In this document: piece by piece, positions 1,941 through 11,399 of the stretch
Numbering within the stretch: position 1 is the first letter of the stretch
Layout: every line of letters begins with the position of its first letter
Assembly (NCBI GenBank): GCA_043820025.1
Contig: JBDRED010000032.1
Coordinates: 1 to 15,043, forward strand
Reading direction: 5' to 3'
From: JBDRED01 sp043820025 [NCBI: Elusimicrobiota bacterium]
GTDB lineage: Bacteria; RUG730; JBDRED01
Length of the DNA: 15,043 nt
Translations under genes and position numbers: made by a program
The notes under the pieces: generated by a model
Databases searched by the model: none
Told to the model about the DNA's origin: nothing
What the model saw: only the letters and a program-made list of their open reading frames with translations

Positions 1941-2978
1941 CTATGAAAAATGCTGATGATGAAGCATTTCGTCCATAATACTCTGGGTATTGCCAAGTCC
2001 TTTTATTTCTACTACTGCGTCTTTTAACAATATAGTATATTTTCTGCTGATCTTCTCCCTATTAATACACTTATTTGCAACATCTACGATAGTATTAGCG
2101 GTATGCTCGACAATATTATCCGGGATTCCATTTGGCACTTCTCTTTTTGTTGTCATATCGCATTGGTCATTTACATAATCAATTGTAACAAAACGGAGTT
2201 TATCATTTTTCTTATCAATAGCAATTTCCGTAGAAAACCATACCATCTTTGTCATAGAAGCTATTTTAGCAACAATCTTTACAAGCTGGAAAAGCCTGTT
2301 ATTATTAAATTCTTCGTATCCTACATGAACATACTCGCTTGTTTGGTCATCCCACCAGCATGGAATAATTGTGTCAAAAACATGAATAATTCGAAACCAG
2401 GCTTTTTTGTTTTCTAAGGTTACAGGCAGTATCTTTTCCTGCAAAAGAAAATTATCGCCTCTGTCAAAATTACGCGCAGCAGCTATCTCATTAATTGAGC
2501 CTTTTGCGTTTCGTATTACTCCTAATTGTCCATAGCCTAAAGCCGGTTTTATAATAAAAGGAACTCCAAGTTTATTCCTTTCCTCACTCGTTAATTTAAA
2601 ATTATTCGGCTCCCAGTTTCTCACTATAACGGTATATGGAACCTCTATTCCAACATTTAATAATTCATAATGCATAGCGGATTTATCTATTGCGATCCTT
2701 GCTCTGTCCGGATCATTTATCACAGCGCCGCCGGCATCCTTTACCGCATAAGATAACCTCGCATAAACATCTTTTGGTTTATTGTATGTAGCGGCTGTAT
2801 CCAGCAAAACCTTTATTCGCAGTTTATTTCTTTCTAAATCGCCAATGACTTCTCTAATATTTTGTTCAGAAACCCACAAAAACGAAAGCTCTTTAATTTT
2901 ACACTCAGCTATCAAAAATTCAATAAAGTCTTCTTTAACTGCTGATTCCCACCCTAAAGCAAAATCATATGTTCTCAT
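1941..2978 (-). CDS. ATP-grasp domain protein, substrate unknown
   Basis: A 345-residue ATP-grasp protein. The N-terminal domain begins MRTYDFALGW and carries INDPDRARIAIDK (87-99). The ATP-grasp core has the nucleotide-binding lysine in FIIKP (141-145), a glycine-rich loop GYGQLGV (148-154), the QEK stretch (180-182), and a metal-site region with EIAID (251-255) and TIDYVNDQ (265-272). ATP-grasp enzymes join a carboxylate to an amine or thiol through an acyl phosphate; which one is joined here cannot be told. An in-frame ATG at 3041 would add 21 residues and overlap the upstream gene, but it has no ribosome binding site. The ATG at 2978 follows a GGGGGG run (2983-2988) and starts at the MRTYDF block, so I prefer it. 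It follows the S66 carboxypeptidase by 43 bases and is probably co-transcribed. I recall similar uncharacterised ATP-grasp proteins but no assigned function. Confidence 0.85.
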   Translation of the reverse strand: MRTYDFALGWESAVKEDFIEFLIAECKIKELSFLWVSEQNIREVIGDLERNKLRIKVLLDTAATYNKPKDVYARLSYAVKDAGGAVINDPDRARIAIDKSAMHYELLNVGIEVPYTVIVRNWEPNNFKLTSEERNKLGVPFIIKPALGYGQLGVIRNAKGSINEIAAARNFDRGDNFLLQEKILPVTLENKKAWFRIIHVFDTIIPCWWDDQTSEYVHVGYEEFNNNRLFQLVKIVAKIASMTKMVWFSTEIAIDKKNDKLRFVTIDYVNDQCDMTTKREVPNGIPDNIVEHTANTIVDVANKCINREKISRKYTILLKDAVVEIKGLGNTQSIMDEMLHHQHFS

Positions 2979-3021
2979 GATTCCCCCCGAATTGAAATTC
3001 AAACACGGCCTAATTTTCGTA

Positions 3022-3948
3022 TTACGAAACTGCTGACTCATTAAAGATTATAGATAATGCTTCAGTATCCATGGTAACAGATATTCCAAAAGGCAAAGTC
3101 ATATGCAAATCTTCTCTGTCTCGTGTATGCCCGGAAGGAAATTTAGAAATAATCGGGATATTATATTCAGAGAATATTTTGTTTATAATATCTTTAAAAT
3201 CAGTTTCTTCATCAAAACATCCAACCATCTTTCCCAATATCAATCCTTTAATGTTTTTCAATTTACCTAACTGTTTCAACTTAGTAAGAAAATTATTTAT
3301 GGATTCAGATTCTTCTCCAATATCCTCTAAGAATAATATTTTATCAGTCGTGTCAATTTCGTAATCTGTGCCAAGCGTTTCGATTATTACCGATATATTT
3401 CCTCCTACTAAGACACCTGTTGCCTTACCCGGATTTAACACTTTGATTTTAGGAAACTTCACAGATCCAAGAGCCAATGGTGTTGTAAGTAAACGAGTCA
3501 TGCAGTCAATTGTCATTGGATTCATACCCTTATACATCTCTCCTGAAACCACAGGCCCATGAAATACGACAAACTTAGCGATATTTTGTAAATAAAGGAG
3601 CAGACTGCTTATGTCGCTATATCCGACAAATATCTTTGGATTTTTTCTAATAATTGTTTTATCTAAATAGGGTAATATTTCCAGAGTGCCGTACCCGCCC
3701 TTTGCGCACAAAATAGCTTTTACATCCTTATCCGCGAACATTTTGTTTAATTGCTCTCCGCGCTCTTGATTAAATTCGGGCTGAGACCAAGATTCATTAA
3801 ACATTGATTCTGAGTATTTAACTATAAATCCCATTTCTTCAAGAACGCTTACGCCATTTTTAAAATTTTCTATATTAAACGAACTTGATGGAGCGGCTAT
3901 GGCAATAGTGTCCCCTTTGTTTATATGCTTTGGTTTTTTCAGCTTCAT
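3022..3948 (-). CDS. S66 family LD-carboxypeptidase (LdcA/MccF-like)
   Basis: A 308-residue serine peptidase of family S66, normal length. The catalytic triad is visible: the nucleophile S111 in VGYSD (108-112), E208 in FLEDIGE (206-212) and H274 in PSGHT (271-275). CAKGGYG (81-87) matches the oxyanion-region block of the family. LdcA members remove the terminal D-Ala from murein tetrapeptides in the cytoplasm during wall recycling; MccF members instead cleave the antibiotic microcin C and related amides. Sequence alone does not separate the two. No signal peptide is seen, in keeping with a cytoplasmic enzyme. The start at 3948 has AGGAG at an ideal distance. An ATP-grasp gene follows directly, so the pair may make and trim, or make and detoxify, a peptide-like compound (inference). 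Confidence 0.93.
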   Translation of the reverse strand: MKLKKPKHINKGDTIAIAAPSSSFNIENFKNGVSVLEEMGFIVKYSESMFNESWSQPEFNQERGEQLNKMFADKDVKAILCAKGGYGTLEILPYLDKTIIRKNPKIFVGYSDISSLLLYLQNIAKFVVFHGPVVSGEMYKGMNPMTIDCMTRLLTTPLALGSVKFPKIKVLNPGKATGVLVGGNISVIIETLGTDYEIDTTDKILFLEDIGEESESINNFLTKLKQLGKLKNIKGLILGKMVGCFDEETDFKDIINKIFSEYNIPIISKFPSGHTRDREDLHMTLPFGISVTMDTEALSIIFNESAVS

Positions 3949-4160: not shown

Positions 4161-5969
4161 CTATTTCTTATTTTCTCTTTTTCTCTCGTGTTCCTTTAGG
4201 AGGCTTTTCCTGACCCGGATAGATTTTGGCGTTACCTCAACAAGCTCGTCTTCAGCGATAAATGTTAAACAATTTTCAAGACTCATTCTTTTGTAAGGCG
4301 TCAAAACAATCGCGTCATCAGAACCTGAAGCGCGCATATTGGTAAGCTTTTTACCTCTGCAGACATTTACAACCAGATCATTGCTTCTGGTGTGTATGCC
4401 AATTAACTGGCCTTCGTACACCTTTTCTCCCGGCCCTATAATCATTTCCCCTCTGCTTTGCAAATTAAATAATGAAAAAGCTGTAGTTGTCCCGGTTTCC
4501 ATTGAAATCAATACGCCATTTTCTCTTTTTGAAATTTCACCTACATATTTCTCATAATCAAGGAATATTGAATTAATTGTGCCCATTCCTTTTGTTAGCG
4601 TCATAAACTCTGCCCTAAAACCTAAAAATCCACGCGTAGGAATTTTGTATATTAATCGCGCTAAATCATTTTCCTGCCTCAAATCAAGCATTAGTCCTTT
4701 TCTTTGGCCAAGCCTCTCAATAACACCACCCATTGCCTCTTCGCTCACATCAATGGTAAGCTCCTCATACGGCTCTGTTTTAACGCCATTCTTCTCCTTA
4801 AATATCACACGCGGCATAGTAACTTGCAATTCGTATCCTTCCCTTCGCAGCTTTTCAATTAAAACCGACAAATGCAGTTCTCCTCTGCCGGAAACCTTAT
4901 AACCGGGCTGGGCGCCTAAAGGCTCAACATGCAGAGCAACATCTGTTAAGACCTCTTCGTCCAATCGTTCTTTTAACTGCCTGGCATTTACAAAATCCCC
5001 TTCTTGGCCTGCAAACGGCGAATTATTCGGCAAAAAATTCATTGTTATTGTCGGAGGATCAATTTCAGGAGCCTCTATAAGCTCCGGGGTCAATGGATCA
5101 GTTATAGTTTCACCTAACGTGATGTTCTCTATACCCGCGACAGCAACAATATCACCTGCGCTGGCTTTATCAATCACTTCCATTTCATTGCCTACAAACT
5201 TATATATTTTAGTAATACGCGCTGATCTTAATTGATTTATATCGCGCGCAATAACAATATCTTGACTAATAGATATACTGCCTTGCATTATCTTGCCTAC
5301 AGCCAAGCGGCCCAGAAATTTATTAAATTTGATCAAGCTTACCAACATAATTAATGGTTTATTTCTATCGCCGGAAGGATGAGGAACATGTTTGATTATT
5401 TGATCAAACAGAGGAGTCATATTACTGCCCTTCTCCTTATGATCCAGCATAGCGTATCCGTCACGAGCAGACGTGAAAACTATTGGAAAATCCATTATAT
5501 GATCAGGAGCGTCAAGTTTACCCATAAGGTCAAAAACCTCGTCAACAACCCATTCAGGCCTAGCGCTTGGTTTATCAATCTTATTAATAACAACAATAAC
5601 AGGCAACTCCAAATTTAACGCTTTTTTTAGCACAAAGTATGTCTGAGGCATAGGGCCTTCGGAAGCATCTACTAAAAGAAGCACTGCATCAGCCATCTTC
5701 AGCACACATTCAACCTGCCCGCCGAAATCAGCATGGCCGGGAGTATCAATAATATTGAACCAGTAATCTTTATATTTAAACCCGCCATTCTTTGCCATGA
5801 TCGTGATTCCCCGTTCTTGTTCTTGGTCCATAGAATCCATAAGCCTGTCAGCAACTACTTGATTATCGCGAAATAAACCGCTTTGCTTAAACATTTGATC
5901 AACTAAACTGGTTTTTCCATGATCAACGTGAGCGATAATCGCAAAATTTCTAATTTTATTTTGTTCCAT
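4161..5969 (-). CDS. typA: Ribosome-associated translational GTPase TypA/BipA
   Basis: A 602-residue TypA, close to the usual length of about 605-615. The GTPase domain carries AHVDHGKTS (13-21), RGITI (53-57), DTPGH (75-79), NKID (129-132) and SAR near 167. These are followed by the EF-Tu-like domain 2, EF-G-like domains III and V and the TypA-specific C-terminal domain (for example TRGFLGFR and [17 protein letters not shown] blocks). The protein binds the 70S ribosome at the EF-G site and helps 50S assembly and growth at low temperature or under stress. The start has AGAGG seven bases upstream. It seems to be transcribed alone: gaps of about 200 bases flank it on both sides, and the upstream gap carries a promoter overlapped by a perfect dyad (6031-6062). 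All GTPase motifs are intact and nothing looks truncated. Confidence 0.97.
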
Positions 5970-6017
5970 TTTTTCCTCTTAATTTATATCCGGCGCTCCT
6001 CTAATCCTTGATATTTT

Positions 6018-6062
6018 TAGTCTTAGACTATATATTGTTTAACATATTTTGTAAACAATATA
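6018..6062 (-). promoter_or_regulatory. Promoter and operator-like dyads upstream of typA
   Basis: TATATTGTTT (6031-6040) and AAACAATATA (6053-6062) form a perfect 10-bp inverted repeat with a 12-base centre. On the minus strand the same stretch supplies TTGTTT (6053-6058) and TATATA (6029-6034), 18 bases apart, as a sigma-70-like promoter. A further palindrome TAGTC-TTA-GACTA (6018-6030) touches the -10 box and the expected start site. The overlap of dyad and promoter suggests a repressor site, though AT-rich dyads also arise by chance. Confidence 0.45.
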
Positions 6063-6120
6063 AATAATCAAATACCAGACTGATTATTTTACCAGATATC
6101 AGATGATTTTGCATGCGAAC

Positions 6121-6142
6121 TTATTGCGAAGTTATTGTGAAG
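6121..6142. repeat. 11-bp tandem repeat upstream of typA
   Basis: TTATTGCGAAG (6121-6131) is followed at once by TTATTGTGAAG (6132-6142), one mismatch. It lies between the UPF0316 stop codon and the typA promoter region. No function can be read from it. Confidence 0.5.
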
Positions 6143-6173
6143 CCGGCCAAAGGTCTTATCTACGCAGTATCGA

Positions 6174-6743
6174 TTATTTACTTTTTCGCATCTTTTGCAG
6201 GAGGCGTTTTGGCAAACTATTACTATGCGAATTTACTTTTGAACTAACAAGACGCATATCTTGAATTGAATAAAATATATTCGGGTCTTCTTTTTTTACA
6301 ATCTCAATCACATTACGCAAATCGCTTCGCTCAATAATTACTGTAACAATATTTATAGGATTAAATATTCCTTTTCCTGAAACAAGGCTTGCTCCATACT
6401 TGTTATTCTTTAATACTTGAACAATCTTATCGCTATTCGACTGTAAAAACATTTGAATCAATACTTGTCCAAGAGCCAGCCTATCCTCGATCAACACACC
6501 TATGTATGTGCCGACAGCAAAACCTCCGGCATACGCTGTATACGCAAATACATTTGATAGGTTACGCATAATTGTGCTTAAAACCGTTATCCAGGTTAAT
6601 ATTTCCACAAATCCAAATAATGCGGCCAAAAATCTATAACCCTTTGAAATAAAAATTATGCGCATAGTTCCTAAGGAAACATCAAAAATACGCGCAAAGA
6701 AAATAAAAAATATTATAGCGTTAATTGTTAAATGAAGATGCAT
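6174..6743 (-). CDS. UPF0316 membrane protein with C-terminal DUF2179 domain
   Basis: A 189-residue protein with three hydrophobic helices at about 5-20, 36-56 and 66-85, then a soluble C-terminal DUF2179-type domain from about residue 105. The FARIFDVSLGTMRIIFISKG stretch (16-35) and the YAGGFAVGTYIG block (71-82) are hallmarks of UPF0316 (B. subtilis YebE-like). The family has no established function; its soluble domain is shared with YitT-type membrane proteins. The length is typical, and the basic tail (KRLLQKMRKSK) should face the cytoplasm. It begins 22 bases after the stop of the methyltransferase/ATP-grasp fusion, behind a modest AGGA site, so both are probably on one transcript. Whether it serves the product of that enzyme, for instance in transport or sensing, is only a guess from position. 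Confidence 0.9.
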   Translation of the reverse strand: MHLHLTINAIIFFIFFARIFDVSLGTMRIIFISKGYRFLAALFGFVEILTWITVLSTIMRNLSNVFAYTAYAGGFAVGTYIGVLIEDRLALGQVLIQMFLQSNSDKIVQVLKNNKYGASLVSGKGIFNPINIVTVIIERSDLRNVIEIVKKEDPNIFYSIQDMRLVSSKVNSHSNSLPKRLLQKMRKSK

Positions 6744-6765
6744 ATTTTATCCTAAAGAATTAGTT

Positions 6766-8676
6766 TTACTTCTTTCTTGATTCTGCGGCTTTTAAAATCA
6801 ATTCGATCATCTCAGAATATGACAAGCCGTATAGTTTTGCCATCTTGGCCAAGTGTCCATCCCAGCACCAGCCGGGATTGGGATTAACTTCAAGAAGTTT
6901 AGGTTTTCCATTCTTATCAAGACGCCAGTCGAACCTGCAGTAATCCTTGCATTCAAGGCGTTCAAATAACTTTAACGAACTCTCTTCAATATATTTTTGA
7001 ACATCATCAGGAAGAACCGCCGGTATTGATTTGAGCTTTGCATAAGGAGAATCCGGCATCCACTTTGCTTCATAACCGCACAATTTTGGGAGCCCTTCCG
7101 GAAGTTCCGAGTAGTCCTCTTCTATTATAGGGAAAATTGTATAGCTGTTTGGAAGATTGCCTATTATGCCTATAGTTAAGTCTTTTCCTTCTAAAAACTC
7201 CTCAATAAGAATAGGATTTCCTTCCCCAACCACTGTTCTGATCTCATCTATTGCAGAAATTATCTGTTCAAGATTTTCAGCAAAACTGCGCTGTGTAATT
7301 CCAAAACTTGAATCCCCAAAATTAGGCTTAATAATTACAGGAAACGGAAAATGGATTTCATACATATTATCTTCAGGTTTAATATAAAATGCCTCGGGAA
7401 CAGCTATATCCATTTCTCTTGCTATACCTCTAACCAATGATTTATCATAACAATACGCAAGACATTGCGGCCCGCATCCGGTGTAATGAATATTGAGCAT
7501 TTCCAATAATGCAGGCACATGCAGTTCGCTTCGCGCGGAGTTATTAAAGCCTTCATCGCATAAATTAAAAACATAATCAATTTTATGTCTATTCTTTGAC
7601 AGTTCCTCTATTAATGTGTCATGGTTATGTAAATATAAATAATTATACCCTTTTATACTTACCAAACCTCTTTTTAATTCATTAATAGTAAACATATCGT
7701 CTTCATCAAACACAGCCGCAGGTTTGATTATATCTTTTTTAGTCGGATCGCCAAACAACACAGCAACAGTTTTTGTTATTGTTTTATCCCTGCCTGCAGA
7801 GACATGCACAGGCCAGTCTTTTTTGATATGCGACGATATAAGTATTCGTCTTTTCATCATTCCTAAATCTTGGTTTCGCTGGGAGTTTGTTTCCAATGTC
7901 CTGTGAACTGTGATATTTTTATACCCGGTTGTTGTGAGCAGATTCTCTATTGTGTCTCTTGAATATAATCTTTCCGCATAAAATTGATCTACCAATACAC
8001 CCTTCTGAGTATGCGTAATCACTTCTCTTGAAATCAAGCGCTGTTTATCCGCTGATAATTCTCTTTCTCTGCAGACGAAGTAGTTTTTATCAATCCATTC
8101 CCAGCTTCTGGATTCAAAATTTTCAAGCAAATAAGATCCGTCTGTAATATCAAGAAAGATCTTGCCGTTTGGTTTCAATATTCGTGACACCTCTTTTAAA
8201 ACCTTTAAATCATCTTGCGCGTTCTCAAAATAACCAAAACTGTTCCCGAGAATTAAAACTACGTCAAAGCTTGATTCATGATAAGGCAGTTTCCTCGCAT
8301 CACCCTCTTTAAATGAAATTGGCAGTCCCTTTTTGCGAGCATAACTTCTAGCTCTCTTAATTAAATATCTTGAACGGTCAAATCCGCTGATATTTGAAAA
8401 TCCTCTTTTTGCCAACGCAATACTATGCCTTCCCTGTCCACAGCAGAGATCCAGTATCTTATTCGATTTCTCTAAGTTAAGCAGTTCTTGAAATACATCT
8501 ACTTCAGTATTTGTAATGGCTTCGTCATTTACTACATCCGCATCTGTTTTTAAATAATGCGCGTTAAAAATATCTTTCCACCAATCTCTTTTAACATAGT
8601 CTTCTAAATTTTTTACAGGCCCTAAAATTTTGCTGACTACATTACTTTGCGCAGCAGCGCCATTTTTCGTAATCAT
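6766..8676 (-). CDS. Fusion: SAM-dependent methyltransferase + D-Ala-D-Ala-ligase-like ATP-grasp
   Basis: A 636-residue two-domain protein. Residues about 30-285 form a class I methyltransferase: ILDLCCGQGRHSIALA (74-89) is the SAM-binding motif I, D100 is the acidic residue closing strand 2, and GDARKL (125-130), SFDVVLILGN (136-145) and ILKPNGKIFLD (166-176) follow as expected. Residues about 303-632 resemble D-Ala-D-Ala ligase: AVLFGD (305-310), CDEGF (373-377), YTGC (398-401), FPVIIKP (445-451) with lysine 450, the loop GDSSFGI (454-460), EEFLEG (492-497), RFDWR (581-585) and the metal-binding EVNPNPGW (596-603). Known relatives ligate amino acids or similar carboxylates with ATP; the replacement of the usual ENxxPG-type ending by NPNPGW suggests a substrate other than D-Ala (inference). 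A good promoter lies upstream and a UPF0316 gene follows. AGGTG precedes the ATG. I do not know a characterised protein with this layout. Confidence 0.88.
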   Translation of the reverse strand: MITKNGAAAQSNVVSKILGPVKNLEDYVKRDWWKDIFNAHYLKTDADVVNDEAITNTEVDVFQELLNLEKSNKILDLCCGQGRHSIALAKRGFSNISGFDRSRYLIKRARSYARKKGLPISFKEGDARKLPYHESSFDVVLILGNSFGYFENAQDDLKVLKEVSRILKPNGKIFLDITDGSYLLENFESRSWEWIDKNYFVCRERELSADKQRLISREVITHTQKGVLVDQFYAERLYSRDTIENLLTTTGYKNITVHRTLETNSQRNQDLGMMKRRILISSHIKKDWPVHVSAGRDKTITKTVAVLFGDPTKKDIIKPAAVFDEDDMFTINELKRGLVSIKGYNYLYLHNHDTLIEELSKNRHKIDYVFNLCDEGFNNSARSELHVPALLEMLNIHYTGCGPQCLAYCYDKSLVRGIAREMDIAVPEAFYIKPEDNMYEIHFPFPVIIKPNFGDSSFGITQRSFAENLEQIISAIDEIRTVVGEGNPILIEEFLEGKDLTIGIIGNLPNSYTIFPIIEEDYSELPEGLPKLCGYEAKWMPDSPYAKLKSIPAVLPDDVQKYIEESSLKLFERLECKDYCRFDWRLDKNGKPKLLEVNPNPGWCWDGHLAKMAKLYGLSYSEMIELILKAAESRKK

Positions 8677-8747
8677 TTAATTATCACCTTTTGATTTTTT
8701 AAAATACTAACTTTAAGATAAGTCAGCTTGTTTAAGAATTGAGATAT

Positions 8748-8776
8748 AATATATACTTAAAATAATAAATTGTCCA
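8748..8776 (-). promoter_or_regulatory. Promoter of the methyltransferase/ATP-grasp gene
   Basis: On the minus strand TGGACA (8771-8776) and TATATT (8748-8753) are separated by exactly 17 bases, each one mismatch from consensus. Transcription would begin near 8741, giving a leader of about 65 bases. This is the best sigma-70-like promoter in the window. The rest of the 192-base gap (8677-8868) shows no gene or strong hairpin. Confidence 0.6.
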
Positions 8777-9222: not shown

Positions 9223-9243
9223 CAAATTTCTTTGCTGCATTTT

Positions 9244-9328
9244 AGTAACCGAAATGAGGGACAGACCCCAAAGTTCGGTTACTTTATCAATAACCGAACT
9301 TTGGGGTCTGTCCCTCATTTCGGTTACT
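9244..9328. repeat. Perfect 85-bp inverted repeat: REPIN-like pair of REP hairpins
   Basis: The 38-base left arm (9244-9281) and right arm (9291-9328) are exact reverse complements around a nine-base centre. Each arm is itself a hairpin: TAACCGAA (9246-9253) pairs with TTCGGTTA (9274-9281) in the left arm, and 9291-9298 pairs with 9320-9327 in the right arm. GGG/CCC pairs lie inside both, within the core GGGACAGACCCC and its complement. Two REP units in opposite orientation is the layout of a REPIN, the form mobilised by RAYT (IS200-like Y1) transposases in other genomes. I recall the GGGACAGACCCC core from such elements. No transposase lies in this window. It begins 13 bases past the stop codon of the U32 gene and could also stop or stabilise that transcript. 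Confidence 0.85.
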
Positions 9329-9341
9329 CATATTTAATGAT

Positions 9342-11399
9342 TTATTTCAATCCAAACTTAAAATTAAATCTAATTGAATTATTAAAGTTTATTCTCTCGC
9401 TAAAGCTTGTTTTCAGAGATAGTAAAAATGACTTCTGCGGCTCAATATAACTTAAGTCTATAAGAAAGTTACCTATTCCCGTCTCCTTTAATTTTGGAAT
9501 TGAGTTGAATATCATAAATGGATTTTCCGGAATAAGAATACTAATATTGCCTTCAGCAAGCTGATTAAATTTTAAATCTTTTTTCTGTGATGACACAATT
9601 CCATAGTTAGTATCCTTTGGCAGCATTCTTGACCGCGCTAAAACCGGATAGCCGAAAACATTAACAATCATCTTATTCGATAAACCTGAATTCACAAGTC
9701 TTCTAATATTTATATAGTCATCCTCCCAAGATGTAATAAAGCTGTCTGCGCCAAATTCATATAATATTTTTGCAGAGTAAGCATTAAGGGTATATAAGTA
9801 CGGGCCTGCTATCATTTTCAAATCATTAGAAATTAATTCAAAATGGCTTATATTATTAAGAACCCATCCATTTACGCCTTTCGCGTCCATCTCTTTAATA
9901 AAATCCGCATAATCGCATAATTCCCTTTGCGCGATAAAAGGCGGCAATTCAACGTATATATTTTTAGAATGAAATTCATTGTTCTTTAGAAATGTTTTAA
10001 CTGCATTGAGATTAGTTTTATTTATATTTACTATTATATTATGATCAGCGTTTTTTTCGTTCAGCATAGATAACCAATTATTATTATTTACTCTAAACCA
10101 CAATCTTTCCGCATTAGGTTTATTATTACCTTCGTTTTGCCTCAATCCGGATATTAAACTCGTATATTCATTTGAATACTTTATATTTTCCTTATGTAAA
10201 TTATTATGCTCAGTTTTATATAAGCCATAAATTTTATCCAATTGCTTTGTTAGGATTTTAACATGCCACTCACTGCTTCCTACCTTAAAAACCGGATTTC
10301 CCGTCTTATATCCTTTATCAATAGAGACGTTTATACAATACTCATCCTTATTTATTTTGTTATATTTGTCTAGTTTGAATACCTTTCTTTGATCATTAGC
10401 AGGATTTGCTATTGCCAGCCTGTCTCCGGACTGAATAATTTCTTGAGAATATATTTTCATATTATTATCATTAATTTCTTTGATTTCCCCAATTTCCTTA
10501 CCAACACACTGCGCTTTGTCGGGCTCAAAAAGCCGGTTATCGCGTCCTGACAATAAACATATAGATTTTTTCCTTGCATAATCATTGTTTAATATCTTCT
10601 TTGCTTCTGCCGCAATACCTGCTTCTTCGCCTTCTTTCGCGTCAATAAGCATTCTATATGCCTTCGTGGCATTATACACATATTCACTGCTCCTCATTCT
10701 TCCTTCAATTTTTAATGAATGTATACCGATTTTCTTAAGTTCGCCTACATAATCAGCCAGCTCAAGATCCCTTGGCGAAAATAAATATCCGCTTTTTTCT
10801 GCTGAACGCCATACGCACCTGCATGGCTGCGCGCATCTTCCCCTATTACCGCTATATCCTCCCATTACGCTTGAGAAAAGGCATAGTCCTGACAAGCTGA
10901 AACATAATGCTCCATGAGCGAATACTTCCAGCTCAATCCGGGATTTATTTGAAATTAATTTAATTTCAGCAAGCGTAAGTTCCCGCGCTAAAATTGCCCT
11001 TTTAAATCCTATTTGCTTTAAGATACGAACCCCTGCTGAATTATGCGCGGCCATCTGTGTGCTTGCGTGAATAGTTATATTTGGAAAGTATTCTGATACA
11101 ATGCGCGCTATACCAAGATCTTGTATTATCAGCGCGTCAGGATTGAGCCTGCTTATGGTTGTTATGGCGCGTACAGCCTCATTAATCTCCTCGTGCCTTA
11201 CAAGAGTATTAAATGCGATATATACCTTTACACCCATTTTCTTCGCGTAATCAATTAAAACTTCTAAATCATAATAATTAAAATTATCAGCATTTATCCT
11301 TGCGTTAAATTTTTGCGCGCCAAGATAAACAGAATCCGCTCCTGCATTGATTGCCGCAATAAATGATTCCTTTGATCCTGCAGGAGATAATAATTCCAC
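9342..11399 (-). CDS. U32-family protein, RlhA/TrhP-like RNA hydroxylase (peptidase U32 annotation)
   Basis: A 685-residue member of peptidase family U32. The N-terminal TIM-barrel part opens MELLSPAGSKESFIAAINAGA. The family signature runs from E158 to C173 (EVFAHGALCFSLSGLC), and the four iron-sulfur cysteines are C166, C173, C189 and C193 (CX6C-X15-CX3C). A middle section (about 295-390) fits DUF3656. In E. coli the two studied members are not proteases: RlhA hydroxylates C2501 of 23S rRNA and TrhP makes ho5U34 in tRNA, both depending on prephenate. Length and the DUF3656 section favour the RlhA side, but target choice is inferred. Residues about 532-652 look like a degenerate second copy of the barrel without cysteines. 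The start is GTG, overlapping the upstream stop in TAGTG, with GAGGAG ahead of it; translation is probably coupled. Confidence 0.92.
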   Translation of the reverse strand: MELLSPAGSKESFIAAINAGADSVYLGAQKFNARINADNFNYYDLEVLIDYAKKMGVKVYIAFNTLVRHEEINEAVRAITTISRLNPDALIIQDLGIARIVSEYFPNITIHASTQMAAHNSAGVRILKQIGFKRAILARELTLAEIKLISNKSRIELEVFAHGALCFSLSGLCLFSSVMGGYSGNRGRCAQPCRCVWRSAEKSGYLFSPRDLELADYVGELKKIGIHSLKIEGRMRSSEYVYNATKAYRMLIDAKEGEEAGIAAEAKKILNNDYARKKSICLLSGRDNRLFEPDKAQCVGKEIGEIKEINDNNMKIYSQEIIQSGDRLAIANPANDQRKVFKLDKYNKINKDEYCINVSIDKGYKTGNPVFKVGSSEWHVKILTKQLDKIYGLYKTEHNNLHKENIKYSNEYTSLISGLRQNEGNNKPNAERLWFRVNNNNWLSMLNEKNADHNIIVNINKTNLNAVKTFLKNNEFHSKNIYVELPPFIAQRELCDYADFIKEMDAKGVNGWVLNNISHFELISNDLKMIAGPYLYTLNAYSAKILYEFGADSFITSWEDDYINIRRLVNSGLSNKMIVNVFGYPVLARSRMLPKDTNYGIVSSQKKDLKFNQLAEGNISILIPENPFMIFNSIPKLKETGIGNFLIDLSYIEPQKSFLLSLKTSFSERINFNNSIRFNFKFGLK

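Follow-up and report, generated by a model that had tools for sequence, protein, structure and literature searches.

A SAM methyltransferase fused to a Ddl-fold ATP-grasp ligase forms a two-domain protein family found in 20 named phyla, Promethearchaeota included

An open reading frame of 636 amino acids that fuses a methyltransferase to a Ddl-fold ATP-grasp ligase is found in JBDRED01 sp043820025 (Elusimicrobiota bacterium), in a stretch of 15,043 nucleotides (contig JBDRED010000032.1, assembly GCA_043820025.1) that was analysed at its full length and is termed the window here. The fusion is best explained as one ancient and transferable family. As to function, the prospect is an even one that the protein is a bifunctional enzyme, which would combine ATP-dependent amide ligation with a probable N-methylation and yield a small diffusible metabolite other than D-Ala-D-Ala.

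The fusion gene is on the minus strand at positions 6766–8676 and has no internal stop. The class I SAM methyltransferase domain forms residues ~18–286 (7819–8625, minus strand) and displays a beta-rich cap at 190–236; the Ddl-fold ligase domain forms residues ~300–634 (6775–7779, minus strand). Both domains are intact. Methyltransf_25 is found at residues 74–171 (E-value = 1.2e-21, 77.7 bits against a cut-off of 27) and Dala_Dala_lig_C at residues 442–628 (E-value = 4.4e-26, also over its gathering score), and the two-domain fusion proposed in an initial, sequence-only reading is thus borne out in one open frame. A structure model built from 72 family members gives a mean pLDDT of 85.4 and a pTM of 0.66, a value that leaves the relative placement of the two modelled domains open. 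Low confidence is limited to residues 1–15 and 295–298, the latter likely a linker between the predicted domains. By VIA-align, residues 300–636 match Ddl-type ligases with Z up to 26.7 (1ehi_A, rmsd 3.5, 308 residues), and the methyltransferase part matches the SAM methyltransferases 3d2l_A (Z = 24.2, 226 residues) and 1wzn_A (Z = 24.1, 225 residues).

A scan of genome contigs showed 83 relatives, of which 80 loci were retained. Both domains are present in the same order in 76 of the 80, with 46–65% identity to the window protein, which excludes an assembly artefact as the source of the fusion. Three loci (L075, L077, L080) run off the contig end. Bacterium HR37 (L081, positions 9983–10843) carries the methyltransferase half alone, a 286 aa sequence with 60% identity that ends where the linker starts, and a Ddl-model search of the HR37 genome showed no fusion-type ligase half. 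The methyltransferase is thus kept without its ligase half in this genome, and the two halves need not always act together. Split halves side by side, the arrangement that the sequence-only reading had named as one that would count against its proposal, are found in 0 of the 80 loci, in a scan that requires an exact 8-residue match and that distant split forms could therefore escape.

The distances of the two halves correlate with r = 0.85, a value reached in 0 of 999 permutations; leaving out the outliers L069 and L071 gives r = 0.82. These correlated distances indicate a long joint evolution. The HR37 gene, together with an extra stand-alone ATP-grasp gene beside the fusion in L038 (26% identity) and L119 (46%), favors the explanation that these are two independent enzymes with different substrates, fused for co-expression only. 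This explanation is improbable, given that the fusion is kept in a single order in 76 of 80 loci and that its halves evolve together. The alignment on which residue counts are based consists of the window protein and 71 of the 80 loci (72 members); L024, L046 and L072 were omitted by choice, L062 and L070 for a short C-terminus, and L075, L077, L080 and L081 as partial sequences. In L071 (positions 4168–8002, a Chlamydiae contig), two full-length fusion genes are found in tandem, 7 bases apart, both with 45–46% identity to the window protein. The L063 homologue comes from a cultured bacterium, Desulforhopalus vacuolatus DSM 9700.

The fusion is carried by 20 named phyla, Promethearchaeota included, with 63 of 72 tree rows assigned. 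The window protein groups with that of L004, an Omnitrophota contig (SH-aLRT 96), and the six Lokiarchaeota sequences are placed together without support (23). Several phyla require more than one label change on the tree, which is consistent with transfer but is not proof, the sequences coming mostly from metagenome-assembled genomes. With a strict threshold, 4 of 285 genomes sampled from the L004 phylum have the fusion, as do 33 of 195 in the Asgard sample, drawn from the phylum to which L007 (Lokiarchaeota) belongs. Several Asgard copies are situated on contigs longer than 1 Mb (G307, G463, G466), and bin contamination is therefore unlikely there. The window BipA shows no more than 50% identity to those of 145 sampled genomes of the L004 phylum (67 with a match at 1e-100), thus the window lineage is not close to these genomes. 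A search for viral relatives gave eight pattern matches, none of them a relative. Among plasmids, 492 records match, none covering 80% of the query, and the rows listed show the ligase half only.

In the ligase half, K412, K450, S457, R581, D583, E596 and N598 are conserved in 72 of 72 members, and E492, the E180 equivalent, is kept in 70 and replaced by Q in 2. The ATP/Mg residues K412, K450, R581, D583, E596 and N598 are the same in 9/9 canonical Ddl sequences, taken from other genomes of the set (10 regions were fetched, and L145 was left unused for a wrong frame). We take the E. coli Ddl equivalents to be K97, K144, R255, D257, E270 and N272, and the E. coli substrate residues to be Glu15, Tyr216 and Ser281. 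The substrate residues are replaced in the fusion. W539 is found in place of Tyr216 and G607 in place of Ser281 in all 72 members, where all nine canonical Ddls have Y and S, respectively. The Glu15 column has E in all nine canonical Ddls but no Glu in the 12 members aligned with them (12/12). D315, one column past the Glu15 position, is D in 72/72 members and H/R/K in the nine Ddls; it is followed by an insert, KP...FDxDD, that is specific to the fusion family. D606, invariant in the 72 members, corresponds to V/H/T/S in the Ddls. The terminal metal-site motif is EVNPNPGWCWDGH (residues 596–608; 6853–6891, minus strand); its form EVNPNPGWCWDG differs from E(V/I/A/L/T)N(T/S/A).PG(M/F)T in the nine canonical Ddls. 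The two stand-alone ATP-grasp genes of L119 and L038 are situated near or beside complete fusions. That of L119 (5318–6439) has 46% identity to the ligase half, the same WCWD motif and a Ser at the Gly607 position; that of L038 (8565–9560) has 26% identity.

The best sequence relatives of the ligase half are Ddl and Van ligases, which favors the idea of an additional Ddl for a modified wall precursor of the D-Ala-D-X kind. Such a function is very improbable, as the family cut-offs are missed by far and the equivalents of Tyr216, Ser281 and Glu15 are replaced. TIGR01205 (D-Ala-D-Ala ligase) gives 113 bits, under half of its cut-off of 245.65, and the best Van D-Ala-D-Lac or D-Ala-D-Ser score listed is 94.7 bits against 550. 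These scores and the replaced residues show that the ligase is not a true Ddl, and the different terminal motif agrees with what the sequence-only reading had seen. Canonical Ddl was searched for in the genomes of 20 of the 80 loci (19 with the full fusion, and HR37). It passes the cut-off in HR37 and in 12 of the 19 genomes with the full fusion (13/20), so that in these 12 relatives the fusion is not the only ddl, as the sequence-only reading had allowed it might be. The best Ddl match in L005 (Phycisphaerales) is a 716 aa frame with 179 bits, below the cut-off. In six Lokiarchaeota genomes the fusion itself is the best Ddl match and no canonical Ddl passes the cut-off; archaea of this group have, to our knowledge, no murein. 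Replacement of the Ddl substrate residues, coexistence with canonical Ddl and the Lokiarchaeota that carry the fusion alone all indicate that this is not the wall Ddl, and the suggestion of a wall precursor as substrate finds no support, given the last of these. A wall Ddl or Van-type ligase was accordingly rejected as a candidate, in view of the missed cut-offs, the changed pocket residues and the Lokiarchaeota that carry the fusion.

In the methyltransferase half, the SAM-site residues D76, G80, G82, D100 and D126 are present in 72/72 members. With the ATP/Mg residues of the ligase half, this agrees with the earlier claim that both halves keep their predicted cofactor motifs, and the putative cofactor chemistry follows from the two enzyme families. 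There are 27 NCBIfam matches to this half, and among the 25 listed, only two extend across the cap, namely glycine/sarcosine N-methyltransferase NF051855 (residues 32–262, 62.2 bits against a cut-off of 350) and daptide methyltransferase NF041820 (residues 41–268, 42 against 175). Both families are amine N-methyltransferases. UbiE-type C-methylases give slightly higher scores, over the core only. Since the cap-spanning matches are far below cut-off and are rivalled by the UbiE-type scores, N-methylation is only a lead. In the HR37 copy, a DVU_1556 match also reaches into the cap. Of the anti-phage defence models of PADLOC, one matched, mad2, over residues 56–203 only, which is the generic methyltransferase core.

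Methylation could alternatively protect or activate one carboxylate as a methyl ester while the ligase joins the other end, comparable to the cryptic methylation that leads to beta-lactone peptides. This seems unlikely: the full-length matches are to amine N-methyltransferases, no carboxyl methyltransferase spans the cap among the 25 of 27 NCBIfam matches listed, and no dedicated esterase recurs, although a recurrent Zn hydrolase, AstE (11 of 101 loci), could act later. Such an ester has a precedent in the pathway of CysG and CysD, which also uses an ATP-grasp ligase, but in the accessible passages of that source the methyl ester serves lactone formation by CysF and not the ATP-grasp step (PMC11427300). 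The CysG/CysD pathway is thus a works-like analogue only and is not claimed as the same family.

Neighbouring genes were surveyed in 101 loci (the window, the 80 loci and 20 Asgard regions), with genes called as longest open reading frames and not by a trained gene finder. No neighbour gene is constant in the 101 loci, and a fixed operon was not found. The genes seen repeatedly near the fusion encode aspartoacylase-type hydrolases, Mg2+ channels and UPF0316; the rest of the neighbours are mostly housekeeping genes. The p-values given here for genes within three genes of the fusion against those farther away ignore kinship and multiple testing. The AstE/AspA-type (aspartoacylase-type) Zn hydrolase is within three genes in 9 of its 11 loci and farther in 2 (p = 0.020). 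It shows 8 changes on the tree, a count made with no shuffled control and with short-flanked loci scored as lacking the neighbour; none of the Asgard loci has it, and 90 of the 101 loci examined, some with short flanks, lack it. CorA, found in 9 loci, is within three genes in all nine (9 against 0, p = 0.0011), but three Atribacteria and two Spirochaetia among them are close kin. An aldo/keto reductase is near in 5 loci and farther in 1 (p = 0.08). L066 shows UPF0316, the fusion, AstE and, at +3, MgtE, and L049 carries CorA, a CNNM protein, AstE, RimK and a RimB-type protease.

RimK, found in 5 of the 101 loci, two of which (L049 and L068) also have AstE and a Zn protease of the RimB type, brings in a protein substrate, to the end or side chain of which the ligase would add an amino acid in a RimK-like manner, the methyltransferase then capping it. 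We give this little credence, as RimK does not cluster around the fusion (within three genes in 3 loci, farther in 2, p = 0.44), the fold and residues of the ligase are Ddl-like, which is a small-molecule family, and no substrate protein recurs among the loci.

The UPF0316 membrane protein gene (DUF5698 and DUF2179) is found at 6174–6743 on the minus strand, 22 bases downstream of the fusion gene. It passes the cut-offs of PF18955 (76.6 against 27.5), PF10035 and NF003191 (182.8 against 179). UPF0316 and the fusion are immediate neighbours in the window, L054 (Actinomycetota), L066 (Gammaproteobacteria) and L131 (Asgard), and UPF0316 is present in 10 of the 101 loci, within three genes in 6 and farther in 4 (p = 0.30). 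Of the 195 Asgard genomes, 8 have UPF0316, and the fusion is present in 7 of these (Fisher p = 1.6e-5, kinship ignored). The exception is G447; conversely, UPF0316 is missing from 26 of the 33 Asgard fusion carriers. Bacterial carriers were counted in 50 of the 80 loci (six Lokiarchaeota and 24 others were left out), and UPF0316 is missing from 33 of the 50 and present in 17, a share to be compared with 27 of 149 Planctomycetota in general. All six Planctomycetota carriers among the 50 have UPF0316, which may be a lineage effect. The placement of UPF0316 beside the fusion thus recurs in other lineages, but the fixed compact pathway proposed earlier finds no support, with 33/50 bacterial carriers lacking UPF0316 and neighbours that are mostly housekeeping genes. 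UPF0316 is thus a plausible partner of the fusion, though an optional one. A UPF0316 protein is among those detected only under gliotoxin in the passages available from a metal-depletion study (PMC10533825), which is a lead at most.

Upstream of the fusion gene, a Shine-Dalgarno-like AAAGGTGAT (8683–8691, minus strand), read by eye, is 6 bases before the ATG. A promoter-like TGGACA-17-TATATT (8748–8776, minus strand) has a 10/12 match, which is not above chance for the region: 15 promoter-like sites were observed, and shuffles give 12.9 +/- 3.6. The single strong promoter of the sequence-only reading thus finds no support. The intergenic region at 9241–9331 shows a near-perfect inverted repeat (ggggtctgtccctcatttcggttac and its complement), also read by eye; such repeats are common in some metagenome-assembled genomes.

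Elsewhere in the window, the minus strand at 1941–3948 carries an S66 LD-carboxypeptidase-like gene and, after it, an ATP-grasp-like one. The latter shows no Pfam match at 1e-3 and weak matches to RimK/LysX models of NCBIfam. Translation of this ATP-grasp-like gene probably begins near 2978, since alignments with its relatives start at about residue 20. Relatives are found in 12 of 193 genomes of an Omnitrophota-like sample. A full S66 gene is beside the ATP-grasp-like gene in 5 of 8 fetched loci (L150–L154), and L157 gives a fragment match. The predicted S66 peptidase and the putative ligase are a conserved pair.

No NCBIfam or Pfam family model names the fusion, and no description of it was found in the open-licence literature, subscription papers being outside the search. 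In the accessible passages of a paper on archaeal protein fusions, 'D-ala' and 'Lokiarch' do not occur and the ligase and methyltransferase-domain passages concern other proteins (PMC11237513). Ddl and Van ligases have in common with the fusion the ATP-grasp fold (Z up to 26.7) and the Lys, Arg, Asp, Glu and Asn of the ATP/Mg site, but the fusion differs in its attached methyltransferase, the Tyr216 to Trp and Ser281 to Gly replacements, the loss of Glu15 and the KP...FDxDD insert. Glycine/sarcosine N-methyltransferase and daptide methyltransferase match the fusion in core and cap, far below cut-off, and have no ligase part of their own. The best plasmid matches are stand-alone Ddl-like ATP-grasp proteins of rhizobial plasmids, with ~30% identity to the ligase half, no methyltransferase and EINPLPGL-type or EINSMPGL-type ends. 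MysD is a Ddl-like ligase as well. In the passages available on mycosporine-like amino acids, the MysD pathway has an ATP-grasp ligase and an O-methyltransferase in gene clusters (PMC11983340, PMC9918943). These are separate genes for a phototroph sunscreen, likened to the fusion by pathway description only. Carnosine synthase is an ATP-grasp enzyme, and with carnosine N-methyltransferase it makes up a pair of animal proteins of other families that is a works-like analogue of the fusion only. According to the passages available, the dipeptide made by carnosine synthase is N-methylated by carnosine N-methyltransferase to give anserine (PMC3660329, PMC10539627).

In the bifunctional enzyme proposed here, the C-terminal half would use ATP and Mg2+ to convert a carboxylate to an acyl phosphate, which would then be joined to an amine, as in Ddl. 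The rebuilt substrate pocket points to an amide or dipeptide other than D-Ala-D-Ala as the product. The N-terminal half would methylate the substrate or the product of the ligation, most likely on nitrogen, so that both domains would have a substrate in common and the product would most likely be an N-methylated dipeptide or acyl amino acid. Its use can be guessed at, e.g. as a stress or osmotic solute, a buffer or a metal ligand, and in some hosts an aspartoacylase-type hydrolase would take it apart.

A wider proposal is tentative and on the doubtful side: that a small N-methylated amide is a cross-domain metabolite, the gene for which has been exchanged between Asgard archaea and no fewer than 19 named bacterial phyla. 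UPF0316 would then transport or sense the metabolite in some hosts, and in others an aspartoacylase-type hydrolase would recycle it. If true, the uncharacterised UPF0316 family would gain its first pathway, and the fusion offers a first handle on that family. The ~60% identity across 20 named phyla means that the product must have a very strict structure. Where archaea that have no wall carry an annotated D-Ala-D-Ala ligase, it may be the fusion enzyme, and as the fusion is a self-contained single gene, the question of its product is directly testable.
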